Shown piece by piece: positions 1 through 5,871 of a stretch of DNA of 5,871 nucleotides; within the stretch, counting starts at the first letter, position 1; the number at the start of each line of letters is the position of its first letter. The DNA is from Candidatus Latescibacterota bacterium. Lineage in GTDB: Bacteria > Latescibacterota > UBA2968 > GCA-2709665. Made by a program: the position numbers and the translations under genes. The notes below the pieces were generated by a model that was given only the letters and a program-made list of their open reading frames with translations, did no database searches and was not told the origin of the DNA. Location: NCBI GenBank assembly GCA_030746455.1, contig JASLMQ010000155.1:1-5871 (forward strand), given 5' to 3'.

Positions 1-1667
1 TGCACTCCAACCAGGCAAGGCTGATGGCGAGCTCGTTCTCCACCATCAGCCGCTCCGTGGTGGACTGTGAGATCGCGTTCGTCGATCAGACGACCTACGC
101 TGAGTTCATCCGCCCGCTGTCCAATCCGTCGTGCACCTACACCTTCACCATCGAGCCGATGGGCGGGACCGCGGTGCTCGACTTTCCGCCGGCCATTGCC
201 AATCTGTTCGTCGATCGTCAGTTTGGCGGGACCGGAGCGAATCCGCCCAAGGAGGCCCGCGTCCTGACCAGCATCGAGCGCAAGGTGATGGGCAAGGTCG
301 TATTGCGGGCGCTAAGCGACCTCGAAGCGATGTGGGAGCAGCTGCTGAAGGTCGAGATCTCAGACGTAGAGCTGGAGACGAATCCCGAGTTCATCCATGC
401 GGCAGCACCGTCGGGTACGGTGGTGCTGATCGGCTTTGAGGTGAACGCACAGCACGCCTCCGGGCTGATCAAGCTCTGCTATCCATTTGAGATGCTAGGG
501 CCGGTACTCAGGTACCTGGGGCCTGGCGCGCCGCCCCCGGCCGAGGCCGCGTCCGACGCGCCCAAGAGCGACGGCCCACCAGCCGCTTCGGAGGCCGAGC
601 CAGAGAGCCCCGCTCCAATATCGGCGGAGGATTCGCTGGAGCAGATTGCGGCCCGACGGCCGGTGGACGTCGCCGAGGTAGTCCAGGCGCTCCTGTCAGA
701 AGCAGATGGTGAAGAAGAGGGGATCCCGGGCGCCCACCAGGTCTCGATACTGGTCGGATGCCTTCCTGAAGACCTCGCATCGATCGTGTTGGGGCATTGC
801 TCACCGGAGGAGAAACATTCCATCGGTCAGGCCGCGTCCAAGCTTGGAGACATCACCGCCAGCCAGCGGGACGACGCGTACGCCCGGATCAAGGAGCGGC
901 TCGTCTCCGGCGACTACGTGGTCAAGGGGGCCGCCGACTCTGCGCGTCAGGTCACCGAGGACACGCTCATGTCGGGCTTCTCGATGCTGCAACATATCCC
1001 CGTTGGCCAACTTGCCTCTCTCCTGTCCAAGGAGCACCCGCAGACGATGGCCCTGATCCTCTCGCAGCTCGAGGCGGACCAGGCGGCCCACGTGCTGCAT
1101 CGTCTGCCGGGAGACGATCTCCAAGCCGACGTGTCGTACCGCATGGCGACGATAGAGGATATCTCTGCTCGGGTCCTGCGCGACTTGGAGCGAAGCCTGG
1201 TTGAAGATCTTCGGTCGGCCATGGTAGGCTGGGTCACAGAGATCGGTGGGCCCAAGGCTGTGGCGCAGATGCTCAATCGCACTGGCAGGACCACAGAGAA
1301 GGAGGTGCTGACGCGTCTGGACGCCCAGGACCCAGAGCTTGCGGAAGAGGTTCGGAACCAGATGTTCACGTTCGACGATATCGCCAGGCTCACCGACCGG
1401 GAGATCCAGATGATGCTCAGGGAAGTCGATTCGAAGGACCTGGCGATTGCGCTGAAAGGTGCCAGCGATGAGACGAAGCAACGAATCTTCGGAAACATGA
1501 GCGAGGAGGTGGGTACGAAGATCAGAGAGGAAATGGACTTCTCAGGTCCCGTGCGGATGAGCGACGCTGAGGAGATCCAGCTGGGAGTCGTGGAGATCAT
1601 ACGGAAGCTGGAAGAGGCGGGCCAGATCACGGTTCCTCGAGGACGCTCGGATGAGAAATGGGTCTGA
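1..1667 (+). CDS. FliM-FliG fusion flagellar motor switch protein, 5' partial
   Basis: Predicted cytoplasmic C-ring (switch) protein. Residues are counted from the ATG at 24. Residues 1-165 match the FliM middle domain: TYAEF (24-28), the VDRQFGGTG segment holding the FliG-binding GGxG motif (68-71), ELETNPEF (116-123) and the LIGFEV strand. Residues 166-205 are a Pro/Ala/acid-rich linker. The rest is FliG: a divergent N domain (about 237-315), a middle domain with EHPQ (337-340), the hinge GGPKAVA (408-414), MFTF (447-450), and a C domain with ALKGA, GPVR and a closing EEAGQI. The FliM SpoA/FliN-like C-terminal domain is missing. The frame stays open upstream of ATG 24, and the codons from position 3 read HSNQARL, which fits the FliM helix before this point. 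The true start and the CheY-binding N-terminus therefore lie before the window. No internal ATG with a ribosome site offers a separate FliG start. Domain identities are strong; motor function is inferred. No other flagellar gene is visible. Confidence 0.9.
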   Translation, partial: HSNQARLMASSFSTISRSVVDCEIAFVDQTTYAEFIRPLSNPSCTYTFTIEPMGGTAVLDFPPAIANLFVDRQFGGTGANPPKEARVLTSIERKVMGKVVLRALSDLEAMWEQLLKVEISDVELETNPEFIHAAAPSGTVVLIGFEVNAQHASGLIKLCYPFEMLGPVLRYLGPGAPPPAEAASDAPKSDGPPAASEAEPESPAPISAEDSLEQIAARRPVDVAEVVQALLSEADGEEEGIPGAHQVSILVGCLPEDLASIVLGHCSPEEKHSIGQAASKLGDITASQRDDAYARIKERLVSGDYVVKGAADSARQVTEDTLMSGFSMLQHIPVGQLASLLSKEHPQTMALILSQLEADQAAHVLHRLPGDDLQADVSYRMATIEDISARVLRDLERSLVEDLRSAMVGWVTEIGGPKAVAQMLNRTGRTTEKEVLTRLDAQDPELAEEVRNQMFTFDDIARLTDREIQMMLREVDSKDLAIALKGASDETKQRIFGNMSEEVGTKIREEMDFSGPVRMSDAEEIQLGVVEIIRKLEEAGQITVPRGRSDEKWV

Positions 1668-1854: not shown

Positions 1855-3360
1855 ATGACGAAGGATGCACTGAATGTGGTTCTCATTATGGCGGATCAGC
1901 ACAGCCATGCCGTGGCCGGGTGCTATGGGCACGACATCGTGCAGACCCCGGCGCTGGACGAGCTGGCCGGCTCGGGCCTGGTCTACGAGAACGCCTTCTG
2001 TGCGTCTCCGCTGTGCGGCCCGTCCCGAGCGTCCTGTTTCACCGGAACCCATCCCCACACCCACGGTGCGATTACCCACAACAACAGCCGGCACCGCTCA
2101 GGCAAGGTCTACCGGGAGACCCTGAGGCCGGGCATCACGTCCCTTGTGCGTCCGCTTCGGGACGCGGGATACCGGACCCACGGCGCCGGATACATGCACG
2201 TTGAGCAGCACGTGGACAAGTCGGACGATCCATACGGCGAGCTTGGGTTCCAATCGTACCGGATGAACGCCCAGGAATACGGCCGGTTGGTGGGTGAAGA
2301 GGTCAAGCATCGGTACAACTTCGCCAACATCATCTCGGAGATGTGGGAGCACAGCTACCGCAACGTGGAGGGCGATCCCTTTCCCTACCCGGAGGAGCAG
2401 CTCTGGGACTCGATGATCACGGAGGATTGCCTGCGGTTCCTCGATGAACGGGAGACGGATCAGCCTTTCTTCCTCTATACGGGCTACCGTGCGCCGCATC
2501 CACCGTGGTGCGCTCCGCCCCGGTTCCACGAGATGTACGATCCCAACGACATCGGCGACCTGCCCAACTACCTGGTCACCTATCGCGACAAGCCTCGCCG
2601 GGTCGTCGAGCGGATCAACTATTACGAGCTGTGGAGCCTTCCCGAGGAGATGATAAGGAAGTCCATCGCGGCCTACTTCGGGTTCGTCTCCTACCTGGAC
2701 CACTACGTGGGACGGCTGATCCGGGGACTGGAGGAACGTGGGTTGCGGGAGAACACCCTGGTCATCTACACCTCGGACCACGGTGAGATGCTCTACAAGA
2801 ACGGGATTTGCGAGAAGCACACGTTCTTCGAGGACGCGGTGCGCATTCCCCTCATCTGCTCGCTGCCGGGGACGATTGAGTGCGGGAAGCGTACCGACGC
2901 GATGGTCAGCAACATCGACATCCTGCCCACGGTGCTGCCGATGTTGGGACTGCCCCTGCCCGGCTTCGTGGAGGGGAAGGACCTGGCCCCTACCTTCACG
3001 GGCGGAGAGGTGCAGGGCCACATCTTCGCCGAGTACTACCACAGCCTGGATCCCTGCCGCATGGTGCGGGACAAGCGCTGGAAATACATCCACACGGAAG
3101 AGGACATTTGCGAGCTGTACGACCTGGAGAACGATCCGGAGGAGTCGATCAACCTGGCGTGGTATCCTCAGTACGTGCCCCGCATCCGGCGCATGCACGA
3201 GCTTGTGATGGCGGACTGGGAGATCCCCGAGCTCCCGGTGTGGGCGGCGTGGAACGATCTGAACGAGAGGAAGCAGCGGCTCAGATTGACGGACCCGGAC
3301 ATCATCGACCCCAGATCCGAGCCGCCGGAGTGGGTCGCGAACCACCGGGAGGAAGGCTGA
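1855..3360 (+). CDS. Type I (formylglycine) sulfatase, arylsulfatase A-like, likely cytoplasmic
   Basis: Hydrolyses a sulfate ester; the substrate cannot be told from sequence. The 501-residue protein has a sulfatase domain (about 6-365) followed by a short C-terminal subdomain like DUF4976 (about 390-450, with MVRDKRWKYI and ELYDLENDPEE). The catalytic motif C54-G-P-S-R58 matches the C-x-P-S-R signature, in which Cys is oxidised to formylglycine by FGE or an anaerobic sulfatase-maturating enzyme; neither gene is in the window. Likely metal and substrate ligands are D14-Q15 near the start, H215 in the APHPPW motif, D308-H309 in TSDHGE, and K321. D-Q in place of D-D and D-H in place of D-N are common bacterial variants. 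Length is normal. The N-terminus MTKDALNVVLIMADQ shows no signal peptide or lipobox. The gene lies 83 bases before a glycoside hydrolase on the same strand and probably shares its transcript. Confidence 0.95.
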   Translation: MTKDALNVVLIMADQHSHAVAGCYGHDIVQTPALDELAGSGLVYENAFCASPLCGPSRASCFTGTHPHTHGAITHNNSRHRSGKVYRETLRPGITSLVRPLRDAGYRTHGAGYMHVEQHVDKSDDPYGELGFQSYRMNAQEYGRLVGEEVKHRYNFANIISEMWEHSYRNVEGDPFPYPEEQLWDSMITEDCLRFLDERETDQPFFLYTGYRAPHPPWCAPPRFHEMYDPNDIGDLPNYLVTYRDKPRRVVERINYYELWSLPEEMIRKSIAAYFGFVSYLDHYVGRLIRGLEERGLRENTLVIYTSDHGEMLYKNGICEKHTFFEDAVRIPLICSLPGTIECGKRTDAMVSNIDILPTVLPMLGLPLPGFVEGKDLAPTFTGGEVQGHIFAEYYHSLDPCRMVRDKRWKYIHTEEDICELYDLENDPEESINLAWYPQYVPRIRRMHELVMADWEIPELPVWAAWNDLNERKQRLRLTDPDIIDPRSEPPEWVANHREEG

Positions 3361-3363
3361 GAG

Positions 3364-3408
3364 GCATTGTCAGGTGAAGCGTGAAGCATTGTAGGTCGAG
3401 TCGAGGCC
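3364..3408 (+). repeat. Short heptamer repeat and possible degenerate third copy of the intergenic element
   Basis: A tandem pair of GTGAAGC (3374-3387) lies between two GCATTGT words (3364-3370 and 3386-3392). AGGTCG (3393-3398) and GAGGCC (3403-3408) follow. The order CATTG, AGGTCG, GAGGCC echoes blocks A, B and C of the element seen at 1686 and 5038, but the shared words are short. The repeat pair is directly visible; membership in the family is a weak inference. Confidence 0.3.
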
Positions 3409-3428
3409 GGTCCCCTGCCCTCTTCCTT

Positions 3429-3434
3429 GGAGAA
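3429..3434 (+). promoter_or_regulatory. Ribosome binding site that decides the hydrolase start
   Basis: GGAGAA sits 9 bases before the ATG at 3444. This favours that ATG over the in-frame GTG at 3381. The GTG lies inside the GTGAAGC repeat and would add 21 residues with no resemblance to the family's N-terminus. Confidence 0.65.
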
Positions 3435-3443
3435 CTCGATTTC

Positions 3444-4784
3444 ATGCTCAGAGTGAGCGACAACGGACGGTTCCTCGTCGAGGACGATGGCACACCCTTC
3501 TTCTGGATGGGTGACACGGCGTGGGGCCTGTTCCATCGCCTCACGGCAGAAGAGGCCGATCTCTATCTGTTAAACAGGGCGGCCAAAGGCTTCAATGTGG
3601 TCCAGGCGTGTCTGATTGCGCCCGGCCGACTCAACGGGCTGGGTCCCAACGCCTGCGGCCACGCTCCTCTGGCCGACAACGATCCGGCCCGGCCCAGTCC
3701 CGCCCACTTCGATCACGCGGACGCGATCATCCAGCGTGCTGCGTCCCACGGTATTCACGTCGCGCTCGTACCGGTGTGGGGGGCCGTGTACGTGGCCGGC
3801 TACCAGGATGGCCCCCGGGTCTTCGACGACGCGAAGGCCCGTGAGTACGGGGCGTTCGTTGGGGCGCGCTACCGTGATCGTGAGAATATCGTCTGGGTCC
3901 TGGGAGGCGATGTCCCGGTGGTGGTGGAGGACCGTGACTACATCTCGCTTTGGCGGGCCATGGTGGAAGGTATCAAATCGGAAGACCGGTCTGGCCATCT
4001 GATGACCTACCACCCGCGCGGGGGGCAGACCTCAGCGACGTGGCTCCACGACGAGGAGTGGCTCGACTTCAACATGCTCCAGTCCGGACACAGTCACAGG
4101 ACCCGGAACGACGAGCGGATTGCGGCCGATTACGCCCTTGCGCCCCCCAAGCCCTGCGTAGACGGCGAACCACGCTACGAGGACCACCCCGACCGGGGGG
4201 ATGCCTACCACGGCTACATCGACGACTTCGACGTCCGCAAGGCGGCCTACTGGGCGGTGTTCGCCGGCGCCTTCGGCCACACCTACGGCTGTCATGCCGT
4301 CTGGCAGTACTGGCAGCCCGGACGGGAAGCCGTGACAGGGGCGCGGACGCCGTGGACGGAGGCCTTGGAGCTCCCTGGCGCCGACGATATGCGGCACCTG
4401 CGCGCGCTGTTGGGGTCGCGGTCGATCCTGACGCGCGTTCCGGACCCGTCGCTCGTCGTTCTCGGAGAGGGCAAGGCTGCCGAACACGTCTGGGCCACGC
4501 GCGGGGACGACTACGCGTTCCTCTACGTGATCCCCACGCTGAGTCCGATCACGATCCGACTCGGGGTGATCACCGGCGATCGGGTGACCGCCTGGTGGTA
4601 TGATCCGCGCGACGGAACGCACATCCCGGCCGGCACGATTCCCAATACCGGCATTCGGGCGTTCACGCCGCCGCCGACCCCGGCCGACGCAGGACGGGGG
4701 TGTGATTGGGTACTCGTCCTCGACGACGCCGCGCAGGGTTATCCGCCTCCCGGGATCCCTGCTCATCGGCATGTCGCAGGATAG
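3444..4784 (+). CDS. DUF4038 apiosidase-like glycoside hydrolase (GH140-related)
   Basis: Predicted glycosidase with a TIM-barrel of the apiosidase-like/DUF4038 family and a small C-terminal beta domain of the type labelled 'putative collagen-binding'. The 446-residue protein opens with the family hallmark LRVSDNGRFLVEDDGTPFFW and GDTAWGLFHRL. It continues with AAKGFNVVQ (47-54), PLADNDPARP (75-84) and WVLGGDVP (151-158). D156 in GGD and E242 in DGEPRYED are the likely catalytic acids, by analogy with the Asp/Glu pair of the Bacteroides apiosidase. The end carries VTAWWYDPRDGT (381-392), typical of the C-terminal domain. There is no signal peptide. Being next to a sulfatase suggests the two remove sulfate and then a terminal sugar from the same glycan. 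The family is broad, so apiose as the substrate is not established. Confidence 0.88.
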   Translation: MLRVSDNGRFLVEDDGTPFFWMGDTAWGLFHRLTAEEADLYLLNRAAKGFNVVQACLIAPGRLNGLGPNACGHAPLADNDPARPSPAHFDHADAIIQRAASHGIHVALVPVWGAVYVAGYQDGPRVFDDAKAREYGAFVGARYRDRENIVWVLGGDVPVVVEDRDYISLWRAMVEGIKSEDRSGHLMTYHPRGGQTSATWLHDEEWLDFNMLQSGHSHRTRNDERIAADYALAPPKPCVDGEPRYEDHPDRGDAYHGYIDDFDVRKAAYWAVFAGAFGHTYGCHAVWQYWQPGREAVTGARTPWTEALELPGADDMRHLRALLGSRSILTRVPDPSLVVLGEGKAAEHVWATRGDDYAFLYVIPTLSPITIRLGVITGDRVTAWWYDPRDGTHIPAGTIPNTGIRAFTPPPTPADAGRGCDWVLVLDDAAQGYPPPGIPAHRHVAG

Positions 4785-5107: not shown

Positions 5108-5192
5108 GTGGGCAGAGAGGAAGGCCCGCAGCCGAGCCGACCCGTAGCGCCTGTTCCCCATCTCGCTTTGACAGCCGCCGCATGGGCTGGTG

Positions 5193-5871
5193 ATGAAAAT
5201 GATCGGCCAAACGATATCCCATTACAGGATTCTCGAGGGGCTCGGGGAAGGCGGCATGGGCGTCGTGTACAAAGCCGAGGACACCAACCTCGAACGCACG
5301 GTTGCCCTGAAGTTTCTGCCGTCCGAACTGACGCGCGACGAAGAGGCACGGCAGCGCTTCGTGCACGAGGCGAGAGCGGCTTCGGCTCTGGATCATCCCC
5401 ATATTGGCACCATCTACGAAATCGACGAAGCAGACGGCCTGTCCTTCATCGCGATGGCACACTATGAGGGGGAAACCCTGAAGGACAGGATTGAGCGGGC
5501 GCCGTTGGCCGTCGAGGACGCCATCGACATTGCCATCCAGATTGCCCAGGGCCTCTCGGCGGCCCATTCGAGAGACATTGTTCATCGGGACGTCAAGCCG
5601 GCCAACGTTCTGATCACGGCAGAGGGTCAGGCCAAGATCATCGATTTCGGGCTCGCGAAGCTGAGAAGAGGCAGCCTGCTCACCCGAACGGGAACGACCA
5701 TGGGTACCGTCGCCTACATGTCACCCGAGCAGGCCCAGGGCGCTGAGGTGGACGACCGGACGGACGTCTGGGCACTGGGAGTCATGCTGTATGAGATGCT
5801 TGCAGGGGATCGACCGTTCAAGGGCGAGTATGAACAGGCCGTGATGTATTCGATTACGAATGAGGAGCCGG
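5193..5871 (+). CDS. Hanks-type Ser/Thr protein kinase, PknB-like, 3' partial
   Basis: Phosphorylates serine or threonine on unknown protein targets. Only the N-terminal catalytic domain (226 codons) is inside the window. The first residues MKMIGQTISHYRILEGLG are typical of this bacterial kinase group. Visible motifs are the glycine-rich loop G18-E-G-G-M-G23, VALK with the ATP-anchoring K40, E59 of helix C, the catalytic loop H131-R-D133 with K135 and N138, D151-F-G153, and an activation segment rich in Thr (164-172) followed by MSPEQ (176-180) and D191 of DVWALG. All catalytic residues are present, so an active RD kinase that autophosphorylates is expected. Start choice lies between ATG 5193 and ATG 5199; an in-frame stop at 5169 limits any upstream extension, and no good ribosome site is visible. 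Related proteins often carry WD40/TolB-like or TPR sensor regions after the kinase domain; whether this one does is beyond the window. Confidence 0.93.
   Translation, partial: MKMIGQTISHYRILEGLGEGGMGVVYKAEDTNLERTVALKFLPSELTRDEEARQRFVHEARAASALDHPHIGTIYEIDEADGLSFIAMAHYEGETLKDRIERAPLAVEDAIDIAIQIAQGLSAAHSRDIVHRDVKPANVLITAEGQAKIIDFGLAKLRRGSLLTRTGTTMGTVAYMSPEQAQGAEVDDRTDVWALGVMLYEMLAGDRPFKGEYEQAVMYSITNEEP

Follow-up and report, generated by a model that had tools for sequence, protein, structure and literature searches.

A single-chain FliM-FliG gene from Latescibacterota belongs to a conserved class of switch-protein fusions lacking the SpoA domain

Introduction

In the flagellar C-ring, the GGxG motif of FliM contacts FliG, its partner being the EHPQ motif of the FliG middle domain (FliG_M). 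FliM further carries an N-terminal CheY-binding motif of the EIDALL type, and the charged residues of the FliG torque helix are, in E. coli numbering, K264, R281, D288, D289 and R297. C-ring partners can also be joined in one gene, as in the known fusions of the FliM-FliN type. How a ring made of FliG, FliM and FliN switches is a long-standing question, hard to study under a membrane motor.

Several described systems are close to the proteins considered here, in which the partner joined to FliM is FliG. Like FliM and FliG of the Salmonella C-ring (8UMD, 9N49), these proteins have the FliM middle domain, the N, M and C domains of FliG, and the GGxG and EHPQ motifs. Unlike the Salmonella proteins, they form one chain that has no SpoA domain, a shortened stretch between FliG_N and FliG_M and a changed torque-helix arginine; they also contain a segment probably related to the FliF tail, and those relatives that have their start show no CheY motif. 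Fusions of FliF with FliG are reported to be natural in Chlamydiaceae and engineered in Salmonella and Vibrio (PMC4768692, PMC7355467, PMC11481574). There too a FliF part stands ahead of FliG on one chain, but this FliF keeps its ring-forming part (in Chlamydia joined to an M-like region of FliG), whereas our proteins have at most a diverged tail segment, itself preceded by FliM. Finally, in the co-fold of FliFc with FliGn from Thermotoga (5TDY) FliF is a protein of its own and contributes the tail; in our protein a putative contact of this kind would be made by a tail of the same chain. No FliM-FliG fusion was found in the titles and abstracts of the open-access papers listed by literature searches, in line with the remark in a sequence-only reading of this DNA that such a fusion is not known to have been described.

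Results

Domain organization of the fusion gene

The window, that is, the whole analysed stretch of 5,871 nucleotides, is a single contig of a Latescibacterota bacterium and begins inside the gene of interest. Its features are the following (domains of the fusion protein are on the + strand; amino acid numbers refer to the truncated product):

3-1667, +: single-chain gene FliM-(segment probably related to the FliF tail)-FliG, 554 aa, stop codon at 1665-1667, 5' end cut by the contig
3-515, +: FliM middle domain, aa 1-171 (PF02154, E = 1.2e-39, 136.6 bits against a cut-off of 27)
225-236, +: GGTG, the GGxG motif of FliM, read from the sequence
516-632, +: linker rich in Pro, Ala and Glu, aa 172-210 (pLDDT below 50 at aa 181-202 of the predicted structure)
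633-707, +: segment probably related, via sister FliGs, to the C-terminal tail of FliF, aa 211-235 (predicted helices 212-218 and 220-235)
729-968, +: FliG N-terminal domain (FliG_N), aa 243-322, terminating in a shortened N-M helix
1008-1220, +: FliG middle domain (FliG_M), aa 336-406 (PF14841, E = 3.2e-23)
1032-1043, +: EHPQ motif of FliG_M, read from the sequence
1314-1631, +: FliG C-terminal (torque) domain (FliG_C), aa 438-543
1506-1508, +: Glu502 in place of the torque-helix Arg, from alignment with ordinary FliG
1855-3360: sulfatase, downstream of the fusion (Pfam)
3381-4784: apiosidase-like protein (glycosidase) with a putative collagen-binding domain (Pfam)
5190-5870: Ser/Thr protein kinase, incomplete at the contig end (Pfam)

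The open reading frame 3-1667 is uninterrupted, with zero internal stops, and Pfam domains confirm the single frame from the FliM middle domain through a linker into FliG that had been proposed from the sequence alone. Alignment with the relative P0002 indicates that about 25 residues are missing from the start. No FliMN_C/SpoA domain (PF01052) was detected in the window protein by a Pfam scan up to E = 0.001, so the loss of the FliN-docking domain, also proposed earlier, stands. The protein passes the cut-off of the NCBIfam FliG model TIGR00207 (247.8 against 226.7 bits) and stays below that of the FliM model TIGR01397 (127.9 against 219.6 bits), as expected since the C-terminal third of FliM is missing. 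The FliM part is 72% identical to the ordinary FliM of genomes G003, G004 and G001. GC content at third codon positions is 0.70-0.90 along the gene, with values of 0.80 for 453-602 and 0.70 for 603-752; in the latter stretch first positions exceed it (0.82). The structure model of the protein has a pTM of 0.55. Downstream of the fusion there is no FliN-like, flagellar or related signalling gene within the window; the sulfatase shares 69% identity with one in G007 and about 73% with one in G012. Together with the identity of the FliM part to ordinary FliMs, this makes Latescibacterota a very likely source of the window.

A conserved class of FliM-FliG fusions

Examination of the best 120 of 573 matches in a protein search revealed the same architecture in at least 11 other proteins (P0002-P0012), 43-75% identical over 76-100% of the query; counts for this class, hereafter the window class, are lower bounds. 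Seven of the 11 relatives are complete (566-595 aa), while P0010 and P0012 lack the start of FliM. Five of the 11 come from long contigs: P0005 and P0009 from 7.4 Mb, P0007 from 8.4 Mb, P0008 from 293 kb and P0006 from 262 kb. The finding of homologs with the same fusion, for which the sequence-only reading had called, speaks against misassembly, and the window gene is confirmed as a real, conserved FliM-FliG fusion. P0007 and P0008 break off early within FliG_C despite their long contigs; this looks like a frameshift, either real or due to sequencing.

In a local profile scan, FliM and FliG were found in one chain in 18 of 256 proteins, the window protein included. The eighteenth, P0153, combines a distant FliM with the M and C domains of FliG. 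Among the matches listed for the 64 genomes of the phylum, a fusion is present only in G012 (locus L020), and it is of a different kind.

A second kind of fusion and separate origins

This second kind (P0013-P0015, P0121 and P0122; 801-942 aa, P0122 being without its start) has the order FliM-SpoA-FliG. Two SpoA stretches were found in P0013-P0015, the three proteins scanned with Pfam; P0121 and P0122 span both in the alignment, and two are also seen in the copy in the genome of G012, the source of P0015. A second SpoA region is thus a property of this sister class and not of the window class. Judged by domain content, FliM, a FliN-like part and FliG all reside on one chain here. The structure model of a 924-aa relative (pLDDT 54.7) was too poor for use.

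Phylogenetic trees were built for FliM (85 rows) and FliG (83 rows), in which one in four rows of ordinary FliM and FliG and one in two of the other fused FliMs were kept; P0012 was left out of the FliM tree because of its short length. A single origin of both kinds of fusion was rejected by the AU test (p = 1.3e-4 in the FliM tree, p = 1.7e-63 in the FliG tree). For the window class itself, one origin fits the data. P0009 and P0122 were placed outside their respective classes in the FliM tree, but a constrained tree uniting the window class had the better score (p = 0.96); support for the class in the FliG tree is 94, not starred. P0009 and P0011 have long branches. Four of the five SpoA-bearing rows group with the ordinary FliM of G012 (L016), and P0122, which is half filled, adjoins FliM rows with a receiver domain. 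Replacement of the SpoA domain by FliG, as originally described, therefore holds for the window class, but at least one further design, in which SpoA is kept, arose independently of it.

In the FliG tree the window class is placed among FliGs with other N-terminal partners. A clade uniting the window class, FliGs fused to an FGE-sulfatase-type domain (FGE-FliG) and other extended FliGs was rejected (p = 3.6e-4), and P0028 groups with the FliG belonging to G006 itself. Since this common clade is rejected, multiple origins of the tail-FliG unit are possible.

Conserved and altered motifs

The proposed contact pair is well preserved in the window class, GGxG being kept in 9 of the 10 members covered and EHPQ in 11 of 12. 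By contrast with ordinary FliM, the CheY-binding motif was not seen in any of the nine members with a start (P0002-P0009 and P0011); the window protein itself begins further downstream. Within the SpoA-bearing class the motif is present in P0121 and has altered forms in P0013-P0015.

The torque-helix charges read K-E-E-E-R in the window protein and K-R-E-E-R in ordinary FliGs of the search, so that four of five are kept in kind. The exception is Glu502, at what we take to be the site of E. coli R281. Arginine occupies this site in 93 of 95 ordinary FliGs, whereas the window class has Glu in 7 of 10 and Lys, Ala and Arg once each, with two members not covered. FGE-FliGs likewise have Glu (5 of 6), and all five SpoA-bearing fusions retain both the arginine and the torque charges. 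The stretch between FliG_N and FliG_M comprises 15-17 residues in all 12 window-class proteins, compared with 31 in 95 of 95 ordinary FliGs. For FliG_N, Pfam scores are 51.6-55.7 bits in the five window-class proteins scanned versus 89-117 in nine other tail-bearing FliGs. Hence the "full FliG" of the sequence-only reading is correct in that the N, M and C domains are all found, but the N-M stretch is 14-16 residues short and the torque arginine is mostly glutamate.

Probable relationship of the segment before FliG_N to the FliF tail

Linkers of different groups were compared with FliF in the form of sequence profiles. The profile of 10 linkers from FGE-FliG and other extended FliGs (sister profile) matched the tails of 15 of 15 FliFs (best E = 1.1e-4); among 200 column-shuffled profiles, none reached this score in any part of FliF, tail included. 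A profile made solely from linkers of the SpoA-bearing class likewise matched 15 of 15 tails, and 0 of 200 shuffles equalled it there. With the 12 linkers of the window class by themselves, 10 of 15 tails were matched at a best E-value of 30, which is not significant; shuffles reached the same score in the tail in 1 of 200 cases and anywhere in FliF in 24 of 200. When a FliF-tail profile was compared with the 12 window-class members, E-values below 1 were obtained only for P0002, P0003 and P0012, the window protein having E = 10. Direct identity with the FliF tail is thus unsupported for the window class alone: the signal of a mixed profile (12 window-class and 10 sister linkers), whose score one of 200 shuffles equalled outside the tail of FliF, came from the sister linkers.

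The window-class profile does, on the other hand, match a tail-bearing FliG of locus L006 with E = 1.6e-8 and others with 0.006, 0.026 and 0.12, which ties the window class to the tail-like segment. On these profile comparisons, the segment 633-707 is probably related to the FliF tail through sister FliGs, having diverged in the window class, and it seems to descend from the tail by which FliF of the MS ring docks FliG. What the earlier reading took as a linker is accordingly not neutral in its last part, 633-707, which is homologous to the FliF-tail-like segment of sister FliGs. Search of the linker against PDB sequences gave no match up to E = 10.

Among FliGs of the inspected loci, 27 have an extension of at least 40 aa, one of them, in L020, being the SpoA-bearing fusion itself. 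Five have a clear FliF-like tail (L086, L017, L007 and two in L006) and four a weak match with E = 0.005-0.75 (L090, L095, L018 and L091, all of the FliN-FliN-FliG-FliM type and the four of that type in which the FliG start was seen). In L032 the match is no better than chance (E = 0.96), and no FliF-like tail was found in 16 of the 27, several of which have doubtful start codons.

Ordinary flagellar genes and accessory cassettes

Fusions of the window class apparently coexist with ordinary switch genes. An ordinary FliM (P0231) and the fusion P0006 are encoded on contigs of equal size (261,724), from which we infer that the contig is the same; likewise, the longest contig of the ordinary FliG cluster P0031 (7,406,310 bp) has the size of the P0005/P0009 contig and is identified with it on that ground. 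In G012, contig C101 carries FliF, FliM, SpoA/FliN, FliP and FlhA together with other flagellar genes named by eye. In this genome FliF occurs once in full and once as a partial match, FlhA and FliP are single, and flagellins are present; a profile search gave 10 places with FliG_M above 90 bits and six with FliM above 70 bits. Directly upstream of its fusion (G012:C15) are two FliN-like genes. Cassettes of the order FliN-FliN-FliG-FliM occur in seven places (G012:C75, G012:C8, G013:C258, G007:C63, G064:C272, G009:C68 and G011:C330); in an eighth (G008:C25) there is a single FliN, and FliG contains a stop. Neighbourhoods of the cassettes inspected by eye showed neither export nor rod genes, and both the SpoA-bearing fusion gene and the cassettes stand away from the flagellar operon. 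A gene with a FapA domain lies about 5 kb upstream in L018 (G007:C63). In L013 (783-3172) fliF is directly followed by a fliH-like gene identified by eye, with no fliG between them, the latter having seemingly moved.

FliP and FlhA are missing in 5 of 21 genomes (G006, G059, G061, G063 and G064), yet FliG_M matches are present. These genomes are unusable as proof of C-ring independence, since all five have flagellin and their completeness is not given. Flagellin was in fact found in all 21 genomes tested, so that use in a real motor is possible.

Judging by gene content, related Latescibacterota genomes have one ordinary flagellar set plus extra FliG, FliM and FliN paralogs, and by its sequence the fusion is a member of this wider accessory family. 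The relatives thus bear out the earlier notion of an additional switch protein, and they point to a duplication of the switch ring, the copy having perhaps become a device of its own.

Other fusions and neighbours of accessory switch proteins

Accessory switch proteins are joined to various other domains. A receiver (PF00072) precedes FliM with SpoA in L007 (1550-2974), P0123, P0125, P0128 and others, a recurrent covalent design resembling CheY-FliM. L086 (1208-4042, - strand) encodes a hybrid histidine kinase (HisKA, HATPase, receiver) joined to a FliF-like tail, FliG_N and FliG_M, and a receiver-SpoIIE gene comes next; in L017 (5235-9353) a two-component-propeller/SpoIIE sensor contains FliG_C (aa 546-638, E = 3.5e-27). 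The FGE-sulfatase-type domain (PF03781) is fused to FliN-like proteins or FliG in L017 (11223-12446), L006 (3364-5445) and P0019; FGE domains on FliG and FliN are found in L006, L007 and L017. Genes for ECF sigma factors adjoin accessory FliM/FliN or FliG in L010 (1912-4933) and L019 (7332-10876), and in L010 an ECF sigma and an anti-sigma (zf-HC2) gene precede FliM. P0256, a sigma-70 region fused to FliM, may reflect a deletion or an assembly join. A short stretch of the Trp-x-Pro type, noticed by eye, recurs near the N-termini of accessory FliGs (P0016, P0019, L006, L017, L091 and L092). In L087 (2-1660) FliG_M and a truncated FliG_C share an open frame that continues into a glycosyltransferase, which could be an accident of frame.

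Discussion

Of the readings considered, the likeliest, with a little less than an even chance, is that the window protein is a rotor-like accessory protomer, blind to CheY, which would assemble away from the MS ring and serve as a signalling or scaffolding part instead of a torque rotor. Its putative tail-derived helices would pack against FliG_N in the same chain or in a neighbouring one, occupying the MS-ring docking site, and the GGxG loop of FliM would sit on the EHPQ face of FliG in a fixed 1:1 ratio. The resulting protomer would then be built into a device separate from the MS ring. Lacking SpoA, and with the CheY motif absent from relatives that have a start, the subunit would be unable to bind CheY-P or FliN by the usual route. 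Against this reading, the signalling fusions occur in relatives and not in the window, and the window-class linker profile has no significant match to FliF. The weak tail matches of the cassettes, the genes downstream in the window, the four torque charges kept in kind and the flagellin found in all 21 genomes also count against it. A broader version is possible but doubtful: FliG paralogs with their own FliF tail could form, together with FliM and FliN paralogs, C-ring-like assemblies independent of the MS ring, located in the cytosol or on sensors and driven by receivers, histidine kinases and ECF sigma circuits. Its components (FliM, tail and FliG, or FliM, FliN, tail and FliG) would have merged into a single polypeptide in some lineages, giving a complete protomer.

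The strongest competing view places the fusion in a real motor as a specialised subunit, where it would tune the bias or stiffness of the ordinary C-ring and the segment before FliG_N would be only a linker or be displaced by the FliF tail. This is conceivable, if well short of an even chance. Flagellar genes are present in genomes of the clade; the contact motifs and four of five torque charges are retained, as are the torque charges in all five SpoA-bearing fusions; and divergence of the tail-like segment fits this view as well. Moreover, engineered FliF-FliG fusions of Salmonella are reported to still rotate, with altered bias (PMC4768692, PMC7355467). However, an in-motor subunit is at variance with the missing FliN dock and CheY motif, with the Arg-to-Glu change in most members and the shortened N-M helix in all 12, and with the distance of the SpoA-bearing fusion gene and cassettes from the flagellar operon.

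Decay of a functionless duplicate of switch genes is unlikely. Low FliG_N scores, the early ends of P0007 and P0008 and the long branches of P0009 and P0011 could be seen as its signs, but seven relatives are complete and of similar length, the contact motifs persist in nearly all members, the shortened N-M stretch is common to the entire class and a second FliM-FliG fusion exists independently. An assembly artefact or contig chimera, suggested only by the short, 5'-open single contig of the window, is ruled out for practical purposes: at least 11 further proteins have the same joint, including five from contigs 0.26-8.4 Mb in length, and the SpoA-bearing fusion is present in a named genome record (L020).

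A natural protomer with FliM and FliG in one chain offers a soluble 1:1 unit for structural and single-molecule work, and would show which contacts suffice for ring building. If it is true that accessory rings work outside the flagellum, a part of a rotary motor would have been reused for signalling.
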